From NCBI GenBank assembly GCA_902625475.1, contig CACOBR010000001.1, forward strand, positions 1 to 64,000: 64,000 nt of DNA, given 5' to 3'. Shown here piece after piece: positions 14,989 to 22,855 of the stretch (the first letter of the stretch is position 1; each line of letters opens with the position of its first letter). The DNA is from an uncultured Alphaproteobacteria bacterium. GTDB taxonomy: Bacteria > Pseudomonadota > Alphaproteobacteria > Rhodobacterales > Rhodobacteraceae. Under the pieces are notes generated by a model. That model made no database searches, was not told the origin of the DNA, and saw nothing but the letters and a program-made list of their open reading frames with translations. A program made the position numbers and the translations under genes.

Positions 14989-15822
14989 TTATTCTAAAGG
15001 TATGCTAATCATTAATGCAGCCCATAAAGTTTCCCATACGGCTTTTTGTTTTGATGAGGGGTTAGCTTTTCTTAATTTTACTGCATCAAAAAGGTAGTCA
15101 TATCCCTTTTTTACTGGAATTTTAACAATGCCATCTTTTGAAGTTTTAGTTGTGAAGATAGACACAGTATTATCTAATGATCTTTCAAAAACCTCCACTT
15201 GTGCATTACTTCTTGGGTTTCCTTGATAATTTAATTTTAGTTTAACATAATTTTGGTTTTTATCTGTATAAGGATTATTTAATAATACAAATTCTGTCAA
15301 TAATCCAAAGTTTGAGTCATTTCCAAAACTAGACCCAATACCAACAATTACTTTTGCAAAACGAGTATATGTTTCTTTAAAATATTTTTCTGGAAAACCA
15401 TTATTTATATGTAGGTTTTTTACAGGCCCCAAATCTTTATGCGTAGCAAACTTTTCAAATTTTTCGAATGTCTCATATGTGATGATAGATGGTTTTGAAA
15501 TATAAACGATAGACGTTAGGCCATTTTCACTAAAAGTTTCTGAGAAGGCAGGAATATTTCCTAATCTTGACTTTACATTACTTTTTTTTCCATTCTGGCT
15601 CCAATAAAATTCCTCAACCTTGTTAGGAATGTAAGGAAGATTACTTCCTTGTAATTTTTCTCCAATTTTTATGTTGACTTCTAAAACACCGTTTGTATCA
15701 ATCTGAAATGAATTTGCCTCTAACCACATTTCGTGAGAATAAGAAAAAGCAGCGTAAAAAACTAAATAAATTAAGGAAAATAGTTTAACAATGAATAAAT
15801 TATCTTTATTTGTTATAATCAT
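14989..15822 (-). CDS. DUF4198-like periplasmic protein (Ni/Co uptake-associated)
   Basis: Signal peptide, SHEMWLEANSFQ.. Confidence 0.65.
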   Translation of the reverse strand: MIITNKDNLFIVKLFSLIYLVFYAAFSYSHEMWLEANSFQIDTNGVLEVNIKIGEKLQGSNLPYIPNKVEEFYWSQNGKKSNVKSRLGNIPAFSETFSENGLTSIVYISKPSIITYETFEKFEKFATHKDLGPVKNLHINNGFPEKYFKETYTRFAKVIVGIGSSFGNDSNFGLLTEFVLLNNPYTDKNQNYVKLKLNYQGNPRSNAQVEVFERSLDNTVSIFTTKTSKDGIVKIPVKKGYDYLFDAVKLRKANPSSKQKAVWETLWAALMISIPLE

Positions 15823-16930
15823 TTTATCATTTAAGACTAACTTAATATTTTTTCCATTTCAACTATCATCACATGAATTATCACCAAATATTATAAATCT
15901 ACAATTAGAAAAAAATCGTATTGATATAAAATTCACAACTAATCTTGAGGCCTATTTGGCTGGTGTAGATTTTTCAATAATTAATAATACGAATGAACAC
16001 GATGAAGAGGAATATTATAAAAAACTTAGAAAATTAAATAAATCAGAACTAACAGAGATTTTTTTAAAAAAATGGGATTCTTTTATTTCTTTATTTTACA
16101 TATCTCTAGAAGATGGAACAAAACTTAATAATTTCAATTTTTCAAAAGTTGATACAGAAAACATCGATAACCCTGACGTTTCTCGTTTAAGCACTGTGCA
16201 CTTTTTTATTGAAAATCCTGGAATGAAATCATTTACATTCCAAGCATCTACAATACTAGGAGAAATAATCTTTCGTCAAACAGGAGTGCAAAATGGAATA
16301 ACTCAATATTTATTTACAGGTGAAAAAAGTGAAATTGTTTCTTCCGTAGCTGGAAAACCTATAATCTGGTATGATACTTTTTTGGAATATATACCAGTTG
16401 GATTTACCCATATTTTACCAAAAGGGCTTGACCATATTTTATTTGTACTTGGTCTACTATTTTTAACTCCAAAATTCTATCCATTACTATTACAAATATC
16501 AATTTTTACCTTGGCTCATACAATAACATTAGCCATAAGTTCTCTAAAAATCATTACTATTTCTTCAAAAATTGTTGAACCTTTAATTGCAGCATCCATT
16601 ATCTATATTGCCGTTGAAAATTTTTTTAATGCATCACTTACAAAGAATAGATCTATAACGATATTCTTTTTTGGTTTATTACATGGGCTAGGTTTTGCAA
16701 GTGTATTAAGTAACTTTGGTTTACCAAGCGCTAATTTTGTATGGGCTCTAGTTGGGTTTAATATTGGAGTTGAAATTGGGCAAATAACGATAATATTTGT
16801 TTTTTATGCAATTTGTATTTATTGGATTAATACAAAAAATTATTATACCAAATTTATTTCAATGCCAGGATCTGCAATTATTGCTCTAATTGGTGTATTC
16901 TGGTTTTTTGAACGGACCTTATTTACTTAA
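15791..16930 (+). CDS. hupE: HupE/UreJ_2 family protein
   Basis: GFTHILPKGLDHILFVLGLLFL..FTLAHTITLAIS..GLLHGLGFASVL. Confidence 0.85.
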   Translation: MNKLSLFVIIILSFKTNLIFFPFQLSSHELSPNIINLQLEKNRIDIKFTTNLEAYLAGVDFSIINNTNEHDEEEYYKKLRKLNKSELTEIFLKKWDSFISLFYISLEDGTKLNNFNFSKVDTENIDNPDVSRLSTVHFFIENPGMKSFTFQASTILGEIIFRQTGVQNGITQYLFTGEKSEIVSSVAGKPIIWYDTFLEYIPVGFTHILPKGLDHILFVLGLLFLTPKFYPLLLQISIFTLAHTITLAISSLKIITISSKIVEPLIAASIIYIAVENFFNASLTKNRSITIFFFGLLHGLGFASVLSNFGLPSANFVWALVGFNIGVEIGQITIIFVFYAICIYWINTKNYYTKFISMPGSAIIALIGVFWFFERTLFT

Positions 16931-17083
16931 ATTTAAAAATTAAAAAAATAAATCATTCAAAAAATAAATGAGTTTTTACGGATTTAGTTTATTTTGCTAT
17001 TTTTATTTTTCTTATTAGTTAATAAAATATTCTTAAATTGAAACGGTATTGGTATTCTAAGTTTTTAAAGTTAAGATAATAAT

Positions 17084-18568
17084 ATGTACATTATTAATCC
17101 AACCAGAAAACACAGTTATAGCAGACCTTTAAATATATTTCTTGATACACACAATTCCGAAATAAAAGAACTAGCAAATACTATTTTTAAAAAATACTTC
17201 AACGCAGAAGAAAATGTAATTATTAAGAAACATCTAGAAGTGCTTATTCTTGATCTTTATATTGCTTGGAATACTGATCCAAAGTTGGAGATTGTTATTC
17301 ATATGTCTCCTAACTCTTATACTAAAGTAAGAAGATATAATCAGTTAAATATAAATGAGATAATGATTGATGTAGTAACTTTATTAATAAACCATGAACT
17401 TATTATTGGACATGAAGGTTTAGAAAATAATAAAAAAATAACTTATGTCTGTGCATCGTTAACTTTAGAAAACTATTTTAAAAAAATTAAAGTGAGTGTT
17501 TTTGACATAAACCAATACCAAGAATTAATAATTCTAAAAGACAACGCAAAAAAAGATATTGATTATGAGGACAATTCTAAGACCAAAGATATAAGAAAGG
17601 TGTTAGAACAATATAATGAAATTCTAAGAAAAACATTTATAGATATTCCATTCTTAGAGAAGAGTTATCTTGAATACAAAGGAAAAAAATATAACGTTAA
17701 TCAGCACTCTAAATTAGTTAGGAAAATATTTAGTAATGGATCTTTTGATAAAGGTGGTAAGTTTTACGGTGGGTGGTGGCAACGAATTGGTGAAAAACAA
17801 AGAGAAAAAATCTTAATGGATGATAGAGAAACAATAGAAATTGATTACAAATCTTTACATCCTGTACTTGCCTATGCCAAAAAAGGAATAGACTTTTGGA
17901 AAAGAACAAATACGACCAAATATAGCTATTTTAATGATTCATATGATGTTTCTATTTCTGGAATAAAGGATAAAGAAGATAGTAGAGCAGTGGTAAAACT
18001 TTTATTCCTTACTGCACTTAATACTAACAGCGAAAAAGAATGTTTTAATAAATTCAGAGATCAATGGGATTATGAGTTACATTCTTATAAGGGATTATTT
18101 TCTGACATTTTTTTACAAGAGTTATTAGATACTATTAGAGACCGTCATTATCAAATAGATGATTTGTTCTGTTCAGGTATCGGACTTGATTTACAGAAAT
18201 TGGATAATGAAATAATTGAATACATAGTAAGTGATTTTACTGAACGTAATTTGCCTATTTTGTGCAATAATGACTCCTTTATTATCTGGAAAGAGCAACT
18301 AGATCTTTTAGTTAATAATATGCATACGGCTATTAAATGGGTAATAGGTGGAATAGTAGAAAATTCTCAGATACAAACTAATCAATTTAACATTTTAGCT
18401 TTTAAAGATGATATATTAAGGAATATCGATAAATCTATACCTGATCAAAATTATTCTGATAGTATTATAAAGTCATCTATTTCATCAGATAGATGTGTAG
18501 GTTATATTGAAAGATGGAATAATCATAAAATATACTTTTATGAAAAATATGATCATTTTAAACAATAA
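17084..18568 (+). CDS. Orphan protein with family-A/T7-like polymerase palm-type motifs
   Basis: GKFYGGWWQ..EIDYKSLHPVLAYAKKG (motif A-like), RAVVKLLFLTALNT (motif B-like), CSGIGLDLQ..NDSFIIW (motif C-like). Confidence 0.6.
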   Translation: MYIINPTRKHSYSRPLNIFLDTHNSEIKELANTIFKKYFNAEENVIIKKHLEVLILDLYIAWNTDPKLEIVIHMSPNSYTKVRRYNQLNINEIMIDVVTLLINHELIIGHEGLENNKKITYVCASLTLENYFKKIKVSVFDINQYQELIILKDNAKKDIDYEDNSKTKDIRKVLEQYNEILRKTFIDIPFLEKSYLEYKGKKYNVNQHSKLVRKIFSNGSFDKGGKFYGGWWQRIGEKQREKILMDDRETIEIDYKSLHPVLAYAKKGIDFWKRTNTTKYSYFNDSYDVSISGIKDKEDSRAVVKLLFLTALNTNSEKECFNKFRDQWDYELHSYKGLFSDIFLQELLDTIRDRHYQIDDLFCSGIGLDLQKLDNEIIEYIVSDFTERNLPILCNNDSFIIWKEQLDLLVNNMHTAIKWVIGGIVENSQIQTNQFNILAFKDDILRNIDKSIPDQNYSDSIIKSSISSDRCVGYIERWNNHKIYFYEKYDHFKQ

Positions 18569-18673: not shown

Positions 18674-18827
18674 ATTAATTAAATAATATTTAAAGATTAT
18701 ATTTGAATTTGATACAGAAACCTTTTTTTGGCAAATTTATAATACATGTAAGATTTTTGTCTGACGCTACGTCATGTTTGAAGTGTTCAGGTGCTTTTCC
18801 TATGATCTTTACTAATTGGAGATGATA

Positions 18828-20720
18828 ATGGCTAAACAAAACATTGAAAGGAAGATTGCAGTTATTTTTGCAACTGATGTAGTCGGTTATAGCAAACACA
18901 TGGAATCAGATGAGAGTGAAACTATTCATAATCTACGAGAGTGTGAGTCCATATTAACCAAACTTTTCTCTAAGTATGATGGTCGAATGTTCAATACAGG
19001 AGGAGATTCATTTCTTGCAGAATTTCAAAGTGCGGTATCTGCAGTTGAATGTGCAGTTGAATTTCAATCTTTAATAGAAAAAAGAAATACTTCTGAAAAA
19101 ACTAGTGTCAAGCTTCAATTTAGAGTTGGTATTAATTCAGGTGATGTCGTTAAAGAAAAAGATAATTTATTAGGTGATGGTGTGAACATAGCATCAAGAT
19201 TAGAAGCATTATCTCAACCAAATGGTATAACAGTTTCGAAAGTAATCTATGATTATGTAAAAGGAAAAACAGACTACGAATTTAATGATATAGGAATACA
19301 AAAAATTAAAAAAAACGAATTTCATGCATTTGATCTTATTTTAAATGTATCTCAAAAAAGAAAAGTTCGTAAACCCAATTTAACTTTAAAGTTTGTTTCA
19401 ACTATATCATTTGTCCTTTTATTATTGATTGGTTTTATAGGTTATTTTTCATTTCAAAATACGTCAAATATAACATCAGCTCTTGAAAATAGAATTTCAT
19501 TATTAATCTTACCTGTTGAATTAAAAACTGAAAATAAAGAACTTGAAGTTTTAGCTAGTGGTTTGAATGATCAATTATCCATAACATTAGGGGTCTATGA
19601 CGAATTATATTTATTTGACACTACATCAGTTGAATATTTTATTGAAAATAAAATATCGAATAATGATTTGTATCAAAAACAAGGTGTAAATTATTTATTA
19701 GCAGGTAATCTCCAGTCTATTGCGGATAGGTCAAGAGTTACATTAAAACTCGAAAATCTCAAAAAAAATAAAGTCATTTGGAATAAATCATTTGATTTTA
19801 GAAACGATGAAATTTTCGAAATCCAGGATGAAATAAGTGATGCTGTGTTATCAGAAATTATACCTAATGTTATGTCGCTTTCGGTAGGTAATGAAACTAC
19901 TAAAAATGAGTTTTCACCAAAAGTTTATTTGAATAGATTAAAAGCGAGGGTATCATTTGAAAAACATACTCCCGAAGGAATACAAGAATTTGCTAAGTTA
20001 TTAAAAGCTAATCGGAATTTAGAACCTAATAATCCATATTTAGATATGGATGAAGCTTGGATGTTAATGGGTGAAATTTGGTTTGGTGTATCACAAGAAT
20101 ATGAAAAAAATGTTAAAAAAGCCTATGAATTAACACTTAAAGTACTATCATTTGATCCTGATTATCCATATGCATTGTCTTTAGCCCAATTACTAGAACG
20201 TAAATTTTTAGGTATGAAAGAAAAAGCATGTTCTAGGTTGGATAAAATGGTAAATATAACTAATGATCCTTCAATTTTATCATCTGCTGGTAGCCTTGCC
20301 AGGGATTGTGGAAAATTTGAACAATCTCTTGTTATATTTAAAAATATTGAGGATAAAGCACCCCATTTTCGTTTGTGGTTCAAAAAGGACTATGCTTGGA
20401 CATTTTTAATATCTCAATACATGGAAAAAATTGACAATTTTGATGAAGCGAAGATTTTTATAAATAACCAATTAGATAAGCAATTTACTGAAGATGGAAT
20501 TAATGAGATGTGGCTAATAATGCTTGCTTACATTGCTAGCGTAGAAGGAGACACTGATAAAGCAAAATACTATTTTATCGAACAAACAAAAATGACTAAC
20601 CCAATTAATGTTATTTGGTCAAATAAATATCCTGACATTTTAGACGAAAACCCTTCATTTAGAGATAGTTTTTTTTCAGAACTAGAAAAATTAGGACTTA
20701 AATTAAAACAAAAAATTTAG
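18828..20720 (+). CDS. Class III adenylate/guanylate cyclase with TM segment and TPR-like C-terminus
   Basis: KIAVIFATDVVGYSKHMESDESETI..FNTGGDSFLAEF..RVGINSGDVV; start moved to ATG 18828. Confidence 0.9.
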   Translation: MAKQNIERKIAVIFATDVVGYSKHMESDESETIHNLRECESILTKLFSKYDGRMFNTGGDSFLAEFQSAVSAVECAVEFQSLIEKRNTSEKTSVKLQFRVGINSGDVVKEKDNLLGDGVNIASRLEALSQPNGITVSKVIYDYVKGKTDYEFNDIGIQKIKKNEFHAFDLILNVSQKRKVRKPNLTLKFVSTISFVLLLLIGFIGYFSFQNTSNITSALENRISLLILPVELKTENKELEVLASGLNDQLSITLGVYDELYLFDTTSVEYFIENKISNNDLYQKQGVNYLLAGNLQSIADRSRVTLKLENLKKNKVIWNKSFDFRNDEIFEIQDEISDAVLSEIIPNVMSLSVGNETTKNEFSPKVYLNRLKARVSFEKHTPEGIQEFAKLLKANRNLEPNNPYLDMDEAWMLMGEIWFGVSQEYEKNVKKAYELTLKVLSFDPDYPYALSLAQLLERKFLGMKEKACSRLDKMVNITNDPSILSSAGSLARDCGKFEQSLVIFKNIEDKAPHFRLWFKKDYAWTFLISQYMEKIDNFDEAKIFINNQLDKQFTEDGINEMWLIMLAYIASVEGDTDKAKYYFIEQTKMTNPINVIWSNKYPDILDENPSFRDSFFSELEKLGLKLKQKI

Positions 20721-22729: not shown

Positions 22730-22855
22730 ATGGATTTAGAAGAAGTTTATCTAAGACAAATAGATCAAAAAATTAAACAAAATAATGATTTACAGGAAGA
22801 AACTAATAAACTTTTAAAAGAAATCATCTTAGCATTAAAAACCAAAAAAGAGTGA
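22730..22855 (+). CDS. Small hypothetical protein (MDLEEVYLRQIDQKIKQNNDLQEETNKLLKEIILALKTKKE)
   Basis: Not in track; GAGGGGA upstream. Confidence 0.45.
   Translation: MDLEEVYLRQIDQKIKQNNDLQEETNKLLKEIILALKTKKE

Follow-up and report, generated by a model that had tools for sequence, protein, structure and literature searches.

The TV-Pols described by Iyer et al. (2008, PMC2579912) are minimal family-A palm polymerases without a nuclease. They are marked by an arginine in a hairpin, two aspartates, and an aspartate plus an RxxxK motif in the fingers, and they belong to mobile elements with integrases or resolvases, in hosts that include Rhodobacterales and Paracoccus denitrificans. An integrase, resolvase, transposase or D5 helicase is frequently encoded near a TV-Pol, but not in every member (PMC2579912). 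The divPolA2 proteins of Caudoviricetes have a PolA palm without exonuclease, an N-terminal globular domain and variable gene neighbourhoods, and have been described in phages only. Yutin et al. (2024, PMC11348598), who modelled AUR84708 as divPolA2, found it in phages beside a normal PolB and reported similarity to both DNA and RNA polymerases; a repair polymerase and an RNA polymerase were both considered possible. The CcPol-MP and PolA-SSB primases of SCC elements are likewise family-A polymerases of mobile elements (PMC7581432, PMC10061031). CcPol prefers dNTPs and primes DNA synthesis only with its partner MP, both metal-binding aspartates being needed (PMC7581432), and the PolA-SSB primases have an adjacent OB-fold SSB-like partner. 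Among the polymerases covered by the papers that were found, CcPol is the one with biochemical data.

The gene studied here lies in the window, i.e. the whole 64-kb stretch of DNA that was analysed (Table 1). It is a single-copy ORF with an ATG start, uninterrupted across its 494 codons, in an assembly that is about 66% complete; residue n starts at position 17084+3(n-1). The flanking genes had been named as hupE and an adenylate cyclase in the preliminary description, and Pfam agrees. The polymerase itself has no match in Pfam, NCBIfam or PADLOC, and no nuclease is fused to it, no Pfam domain being found in the protein. It does match PHROG 4756, a family of unknown function (E 4e-42). The downstream cyclase has many paralogues in the genus, up to 13 matches per genome in genomes G000-G011. 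A 41-aa ORF at 22730-22855 (+), starting with MDLEEVYLRQIDQKI, is kept across the genus, and a relative of it lies directly upstream of, and divergent from, the polymerase at loci L018 and L019.

Table 1. Positions of the polymerase gene, its predicted parts and its neighbours in the window.
Feature	Positions	Strand	Source
HupE/UreJ_2 membrane protein, upstream anchor of the locus	15791..16930	+	Pfam
Degenerate TATTRGTAATGKAAG copy, 2 mismatches	17047..17061	+	Motif scan
Minimal family-A palm polymerase, TV-Pol/divPolA2-like, 494 aa	17084..18568	+	
N-terminal domain (residues 1-146), winged-helix-like, possible DNA-binding	17084..17521	+	AlphaFold2 and Foldseek
Hairpin GGKFYGGWWQ...R240, invariant Arg codon 17801-17803	17753..17803	+	64-protein alignment
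Motif A TIEIDYKSLHP; metal ligand D254 17843-17845; H259 17858-17860 at D+5	17831..17863	+	
Fingers: D285; R301 17984-17986 and K305 17996-17998 of RxxxK; invariant N313 18020-18022 at K+8	17936..18022	+	
Motif C NNDS; D397 18272-18274 invariant; N396 for near-invariant His	18266..18277	+	
Class III adenylate/guanylate cyclase, downstream anchor of the locus	18816..20720	+	Pfam

Residue conservation was counted in an alignment of 64 homologous proteins. Nine residues (G225, G229, R240, E252, D254, Y287, K305, N313 and D397) are invariant (64/64). The TV-Pol marks named above are present: the hairpin arginine R240 and the metal aspartates D254 and D397, the fingers aspartate D285 (61/64), and R301 (63/64) with K305 of the RxxxK motif. 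The palm-like order and spacing of motifs A, B and C, already recognised in the preliminary description, thus go beyond chance, and the aspartates it had singled out in motifs A and C are the invariant ones. The motifs are indeed there, but the first of them begins about 70 bp earlier than proposed. The asparagine it had read in place of the motif-C histidine is real. Histidine occupies this position in the other 62 of the 64 homologues, and among the 64 the asparagine is confined to the window species and its 92%-identical neighbour species. In the hairpin, position 226 is Lys in the window copy and Arg in 61/64. With N396 and K226 both at nearly invariant sites, the activity of the window copy may be altered.

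By these features the window polymerase fits the TV-Pols, and by sequence it fits divPolA2. The minimal palm without nuclease, the integrase/resolvase neighbourhoods and the hosts are common to the TV-Pols and to the window family. Moreover, a profile built from bacterial members only, free of phage proteins, matches AUR84708 (E 7.8e-27), and divPolA2 belongs to the same family. Contexts differ, however: TV-Pol neighbourhoods include D5 helicases, whereas the window locus has neither a D5 helicase nor element genes, and in contrast to the phage-borne divPolA2 the window gene is chromosomal and alone, with bacterial relatives in tRNA-integrated elements. Nor does the locus contain an SSB-like partner as in the PolA-SSB primases, its flanks being HupE and the cyclase, or any helicase. 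In Microcystis phage Ma-LMM01, MAP_030 (L100, 22749-24266, minus strand) adjoins a transposase and has no Pfam match. From this neighbour and the look of its motifs we infer that MAP_030 is the Ma-LMM01 TV-Pol mentioned by Iyer et al. An hhalign comparison of the window family with it was weak (E 0.028), with motif A in register, and family profiles A2 and A3 gave no significant match in Ma-LMM01.

AlphaFold2 run on the family alignment gave a model of the window polymerase with pLDDT 87 and pTM 0.87. The 50 best PDB matches in Foldseek were family-A DNA polymerases or single-subunit mitochondrial RNA polymerases, as expected if the palm core foreseen in the preliminary description is present. 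The best match had E 5e-4 and probability 1.0, with TM-scores of only about 0.15-0.35, so that the similarity is limited to the core. The top matches in BFVD were phage proteins of the same family (E down to 2e-21), one of them, from a Rheinheimera Barba phage, annotated as DNA polymerase. PDB sequence searches with the single protein or with a profile returned nothing useful, and the fold assignment therefore rests on structure comparison; in a single hhalign comparison with Pol I, motifs A and C were in register (E 0.004). For the thumb, which is a bi-helical coiled coil in the TV-Pols, the model has one long helix (residues 165-183), and a second helix is not clear. As far as sequence and a predicted structure can tell, a palm fold, a two-aspartate active site and the RxxxK of the fingers are shown for the window polymerase.

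The N-terminal domain is predicted to contain helices at residues 45-64 and 93-103 and a beta wing at 107-124 (pLDDT 83 for AlphaFold2 of the fragment). Its Foldseek matches are weak (E 0.04-0.2) and mostly to winged-helix proteins, including MarR/PadR regulators and plasmid replication initiators (5kbj, 4pql, 4pt7). In divPolA2 this domain has been left unassigned, whereas in the window polymerase it reads as winged-helix-like; that of CcPol-MP looks different.

The palm core, the aspartates of motifs A and C and the RxxxK are shared with Pol I and T7 DNA polymerase. In contrast to these enzymes, the window family has no exonuclease domains, and two further positions differ. The positions of E710 in Pol I and Y639 in T7 RNAP control the choice between ribose and deoxyribose. 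Five residues after the motif-A Asp, the Pol I proteins that were fetched and T7 DNA polymerase have Glu and T7 RNAP has Gly, whereas the family has His in 61/64. Eight residues after the motif-B Lys, a Tyr is found in the Pol I proteins, in T7 DNA polymerase and in T7 RNAP (Y639), and Asn in 64/64 members of the family. Both usual nucleotide-sugar gates are thus replaced family-wide (Glu to His in motif A, Tyr to Asn in motif B), which is a new point; the replacement may affect nucleotide choice.

The preliminary description had seen an orphan outside any phage context. This is true of the window, but not of the family, which occurs in phages and, in bacteria, mostly next to integrases or tRNA att sites. 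Using tblastn, relatives at about 22-30% identity were found in at least 53 phage records, mostly of Vibrio and Aeromonas phages, as well as on two plasmids or chromids of Alphaproteobacteria. In GTDB genomes, a scan gave 177 encoding stretches, of which 80 loci, mainly from Rhodobacterales and SAR116, were kept. Scans of IMG/VR with single proteins found no relatives, and an alignment of 15 members (A1) proved too heterogeneous to be scanned with patterns. When the window's own taxonomic family was sampled, 33 of 198 good genomes (17%) gave matches, of which many are shortened or interrupted by stops; in its genus the gene is present in 4 of 12 genomes. This patchy spread is as for a mobile gene. 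One genome of the genus, G004, has three divergent copies (L017, L019 and L034), one with an internal stop, which suggests repeated arrivals.

At 48 of 84 loci (L016-L099), a tyrosine integrase of one cluster (representative: DUF6538 plus Phage_integrase) is encoded no more than 7 kb from the polymerase; the two share a strand in 27 cases and are on opposite strands in 25. A resolvase is found in the neighbourhood at 10 loci. In about 20 Rhodobacterales loci, tRNA-Gln(TTG) or its 3' end adjoins the polymerase gene. Elements of about 6-13 kb that contain both polymerase and integrase are delimited by direct repeats of a tRNA 3' end, the tRNA being that for Asn, Leu, Val, Thr, Glu, Met, Cys or Gln. 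One of these bounded elements (L018, 10.3 kb, at tRNA-Asn) is in G007, from the window's own genus. Small elements of this type, such as L018, L038, L092 and L094, differ in their cargo, among which are restriction-modification systems of types III and IIG and homologues of Cas9/Cas1. Going by gene content and repeats, the family is shown to be closely tied to integrase/tRNA elements and phages.

Inverted repeats of about 245-490 bp, 85-100% identical, enclose the polymerase in 13 Rhodobacterales loci and in three further ones that are truncated at a contig end. The tRNA-Gln att core TCCTACCACCCCAGCCA marks the start of the arms in L035, L036, L039, L047, L048, L056, L060 and L066, with one-base variants in L035 and L066, and those of L089 come within three bases of the core; inverted repeats also surround the polymerase in L046, L053, L068, L070 and L144. 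Since L036, L048 and L056 lie inside long contigs, the repeats there are not contig-end artefacts. Comparison of L056 with L144 showed a collinear chromosome side (80%) and a reversed polymerase module (96.2%); in the pairs L068/L089 and L039/L046 the polymerase is collinear and the integrase module reversed. Of L144-L146 only L144 adds evidence, since L145 and L146 match L072 and L036 at 100% identity and so are not independent cases. Besides these, seven other loci that were tested have no such inverted repeats, and the inverted-repeat cassette therefore belongs to a subclade. In Rhodobacterales the att core is located at the outer ends of the repeats, and relative to the tRNA the polymerase occurs in both orientations. 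The opposite orientations could be explained either by integrase recombination at inverted att sites or by homologous recombination between the arms. We found no counterpart in the open-access literature, neither inverted pairs of att sites nor integrative elements of this kind that can invert.

A motif near TATTRGTAATGKAAG is located upstream of the polymerase in about a third of the loci, and often inverted on its other side. At two or fewer mismatches it was counted in 8 loci, against 0.15 expected from mononucleotide shuffles, a count that overstates significance because the motif was picked from the same loci. Its recurrence across lineages is the stronger argument. An origin, an operator or an integrase arm site are candidates for its nature. 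A retron-like ncRNA upstream of the polymerase was also envisaged and set aside, as the motif recurs inverted across the gene in Rhodobacterales elements.

At the window locus itself, no integrase was found anywhere in the 64 kb and no inverted repeat flanks the polymerase. In a search for bounding repeats, direct or inverted, the longest exact match was 14 bp, the same as in shuffled sequences. In a second species (G001) the order hupE-polymerase-cyclase is kept with 86-90% DNA identity, and the polymerase frame is open in both species. Between the two, dN/dS is 0.142 for the polymerase and 0.095 for its palm, at a dS of 0.26 that is like that of the neighbouring genes. Elsewhere in the genus, in G007 no polymerase accompanies hupE, whose neighbours are rearranged, and the polymerase copy of this genome is elsewhere, and in G004 the polymerase is at another locus where DNA similarity is restricted to the gene. 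Because G004 and G007 carry the gene elsewhere, and a hupE-cyclase site lacking it was not found, an insertion at this locus would be putative. In the tree, the window copy groups with L016 of G001 (100/100), then with L017 of G004, then with the integrase-linked L018 of G007, and these four copies are nested in a clade with SAR116 elements. The sequence thus shows a window copy under purifying selection at a fixed locus, without integrase, att or inverted repeats. Its presence at the same locus in the second species together with the dN/dS of 0.14 makes it look retained by the host. A loss of mobility followed by host retention would be the simplest reading; it draws on two species, which is few for domestication. 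A HupE/UreJ_2 gene is also present as cargo in the polymerase cassette of L048 (11798-12880), and the resemblance to the window HupE may be coincidence. We considered whether HupE could be former element cargo, but L048 is the one relative with HupE inside the cassette, a single and weak case.

Regarding function, the preliminary description had proposed a primase-polymerase, a terminal transferase or a defence enzyme. The first is best supported, by homology and context, whereas the other two gained no specific support. The gene most likely encodes an element-derived primase-polymerase, whose function would most likely be the template-dependent synthesis of primers or of short strands. As for the elements, their winged helix would bind DNA near the element end, with the upstream motif as a possible site, and the palm would prime and extend short strands on the single-stranded DNA of the excised element. 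The window copy would derive from such an element, would then have lost its mobility, and the host would retain it as an active polymerase in some priming or gap-filling role. We consider it probable that the protein is, as a whole, a minimal family-A polymerase of the TV-Pol/divPolA2 kind with a winged-helix-like N-terminus, derived from an element and kept by the host for such a role. Evidence against the primase reading is that no SSB partner or helicase gene adjoins the window polymerase, while CcPol needs MP. It is possible, and we propose it more tentatively, that the window gene is the host-retained descendant of small tRNA-integrating elements that carry the polymerase in an invertible cassette, and that with its gates replaced the enzyme hardly distinguishes dNTPs from NTPs in priming. 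Alternatively, the protein could be a DNA-directed RNA polymerase, or a polymerase of low discrimination whose products are RNA or mixed strands, which is one option raised by Yutin et al. for divPolA2. The mitochondrial RNA polymerases among the Foldseek matches, the same dual similarity in the published divPolA2 analysis (PMC11348598) and a D+5 residue that, as in T7 RNAP (Gly there), is not Glu would all agree with it. We nevertheless regard it as unlikely: the K+8 Tyr of T7 RNAP (Y639) is Asn in 64/64, Foldseek of the N-terminal fragment gave no match to a T7 RNAP-type promoter-binding domain, the integrase/tRNA context suits replication more than transcription, and CcPol, of a related type, prefers dNTPs (PMC7581432).

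The absence of mobile machinery at the window locus, the changed motif-C His and hairpin Arg226, and the many family copies that are truncated or with stops, including one in G004, could also mean that the gene is a decaying mobile-element relic without present function. This reading is weakened by the frame that is open in both species, by the dN/dS of 0.14 (palm 0.095, dS 0.26) and by the intact metal aspartates, K305 and N313, and we find it improbable. An enzyme of defence or phage interference, i.e. polymerase-based immunity, could be imagined for a gene standing alone between unrelated genes, the more so as the elements of its relatives carry restriction-modification of types III and IIG and Cas9/Cas1 homologues. 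Yet the polymerase is the constant part of these elements and the defence genes their variable cargo, the family also occurs in phages themselves, at times in multiple copies (PMC11348598), and PADLOC gave no match, which makes this explanation very improbable.

The probably element-derived polymerase of the window belongs to a family that joins two separate literatures, that of the TV-Pols of bacterial mobile elements and that of the divPolA2 of phages. For divPolA2, a phage protein without an assigned role, it suggests a likely existence as the primase-polymerase of mobile elements. The conserved His and Asn at the sugar gates make the nucleotide choice of minimal family-A polymerases testable by two point mutants. 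If true, the flipping, from one related genome to another, of a polymerase cassette with inverted att bounds would make for an unusual organisation of an integrative element. Finally, the window gene would offer a natural case of such a polymerase kept by a marine bacterial cell without the element.
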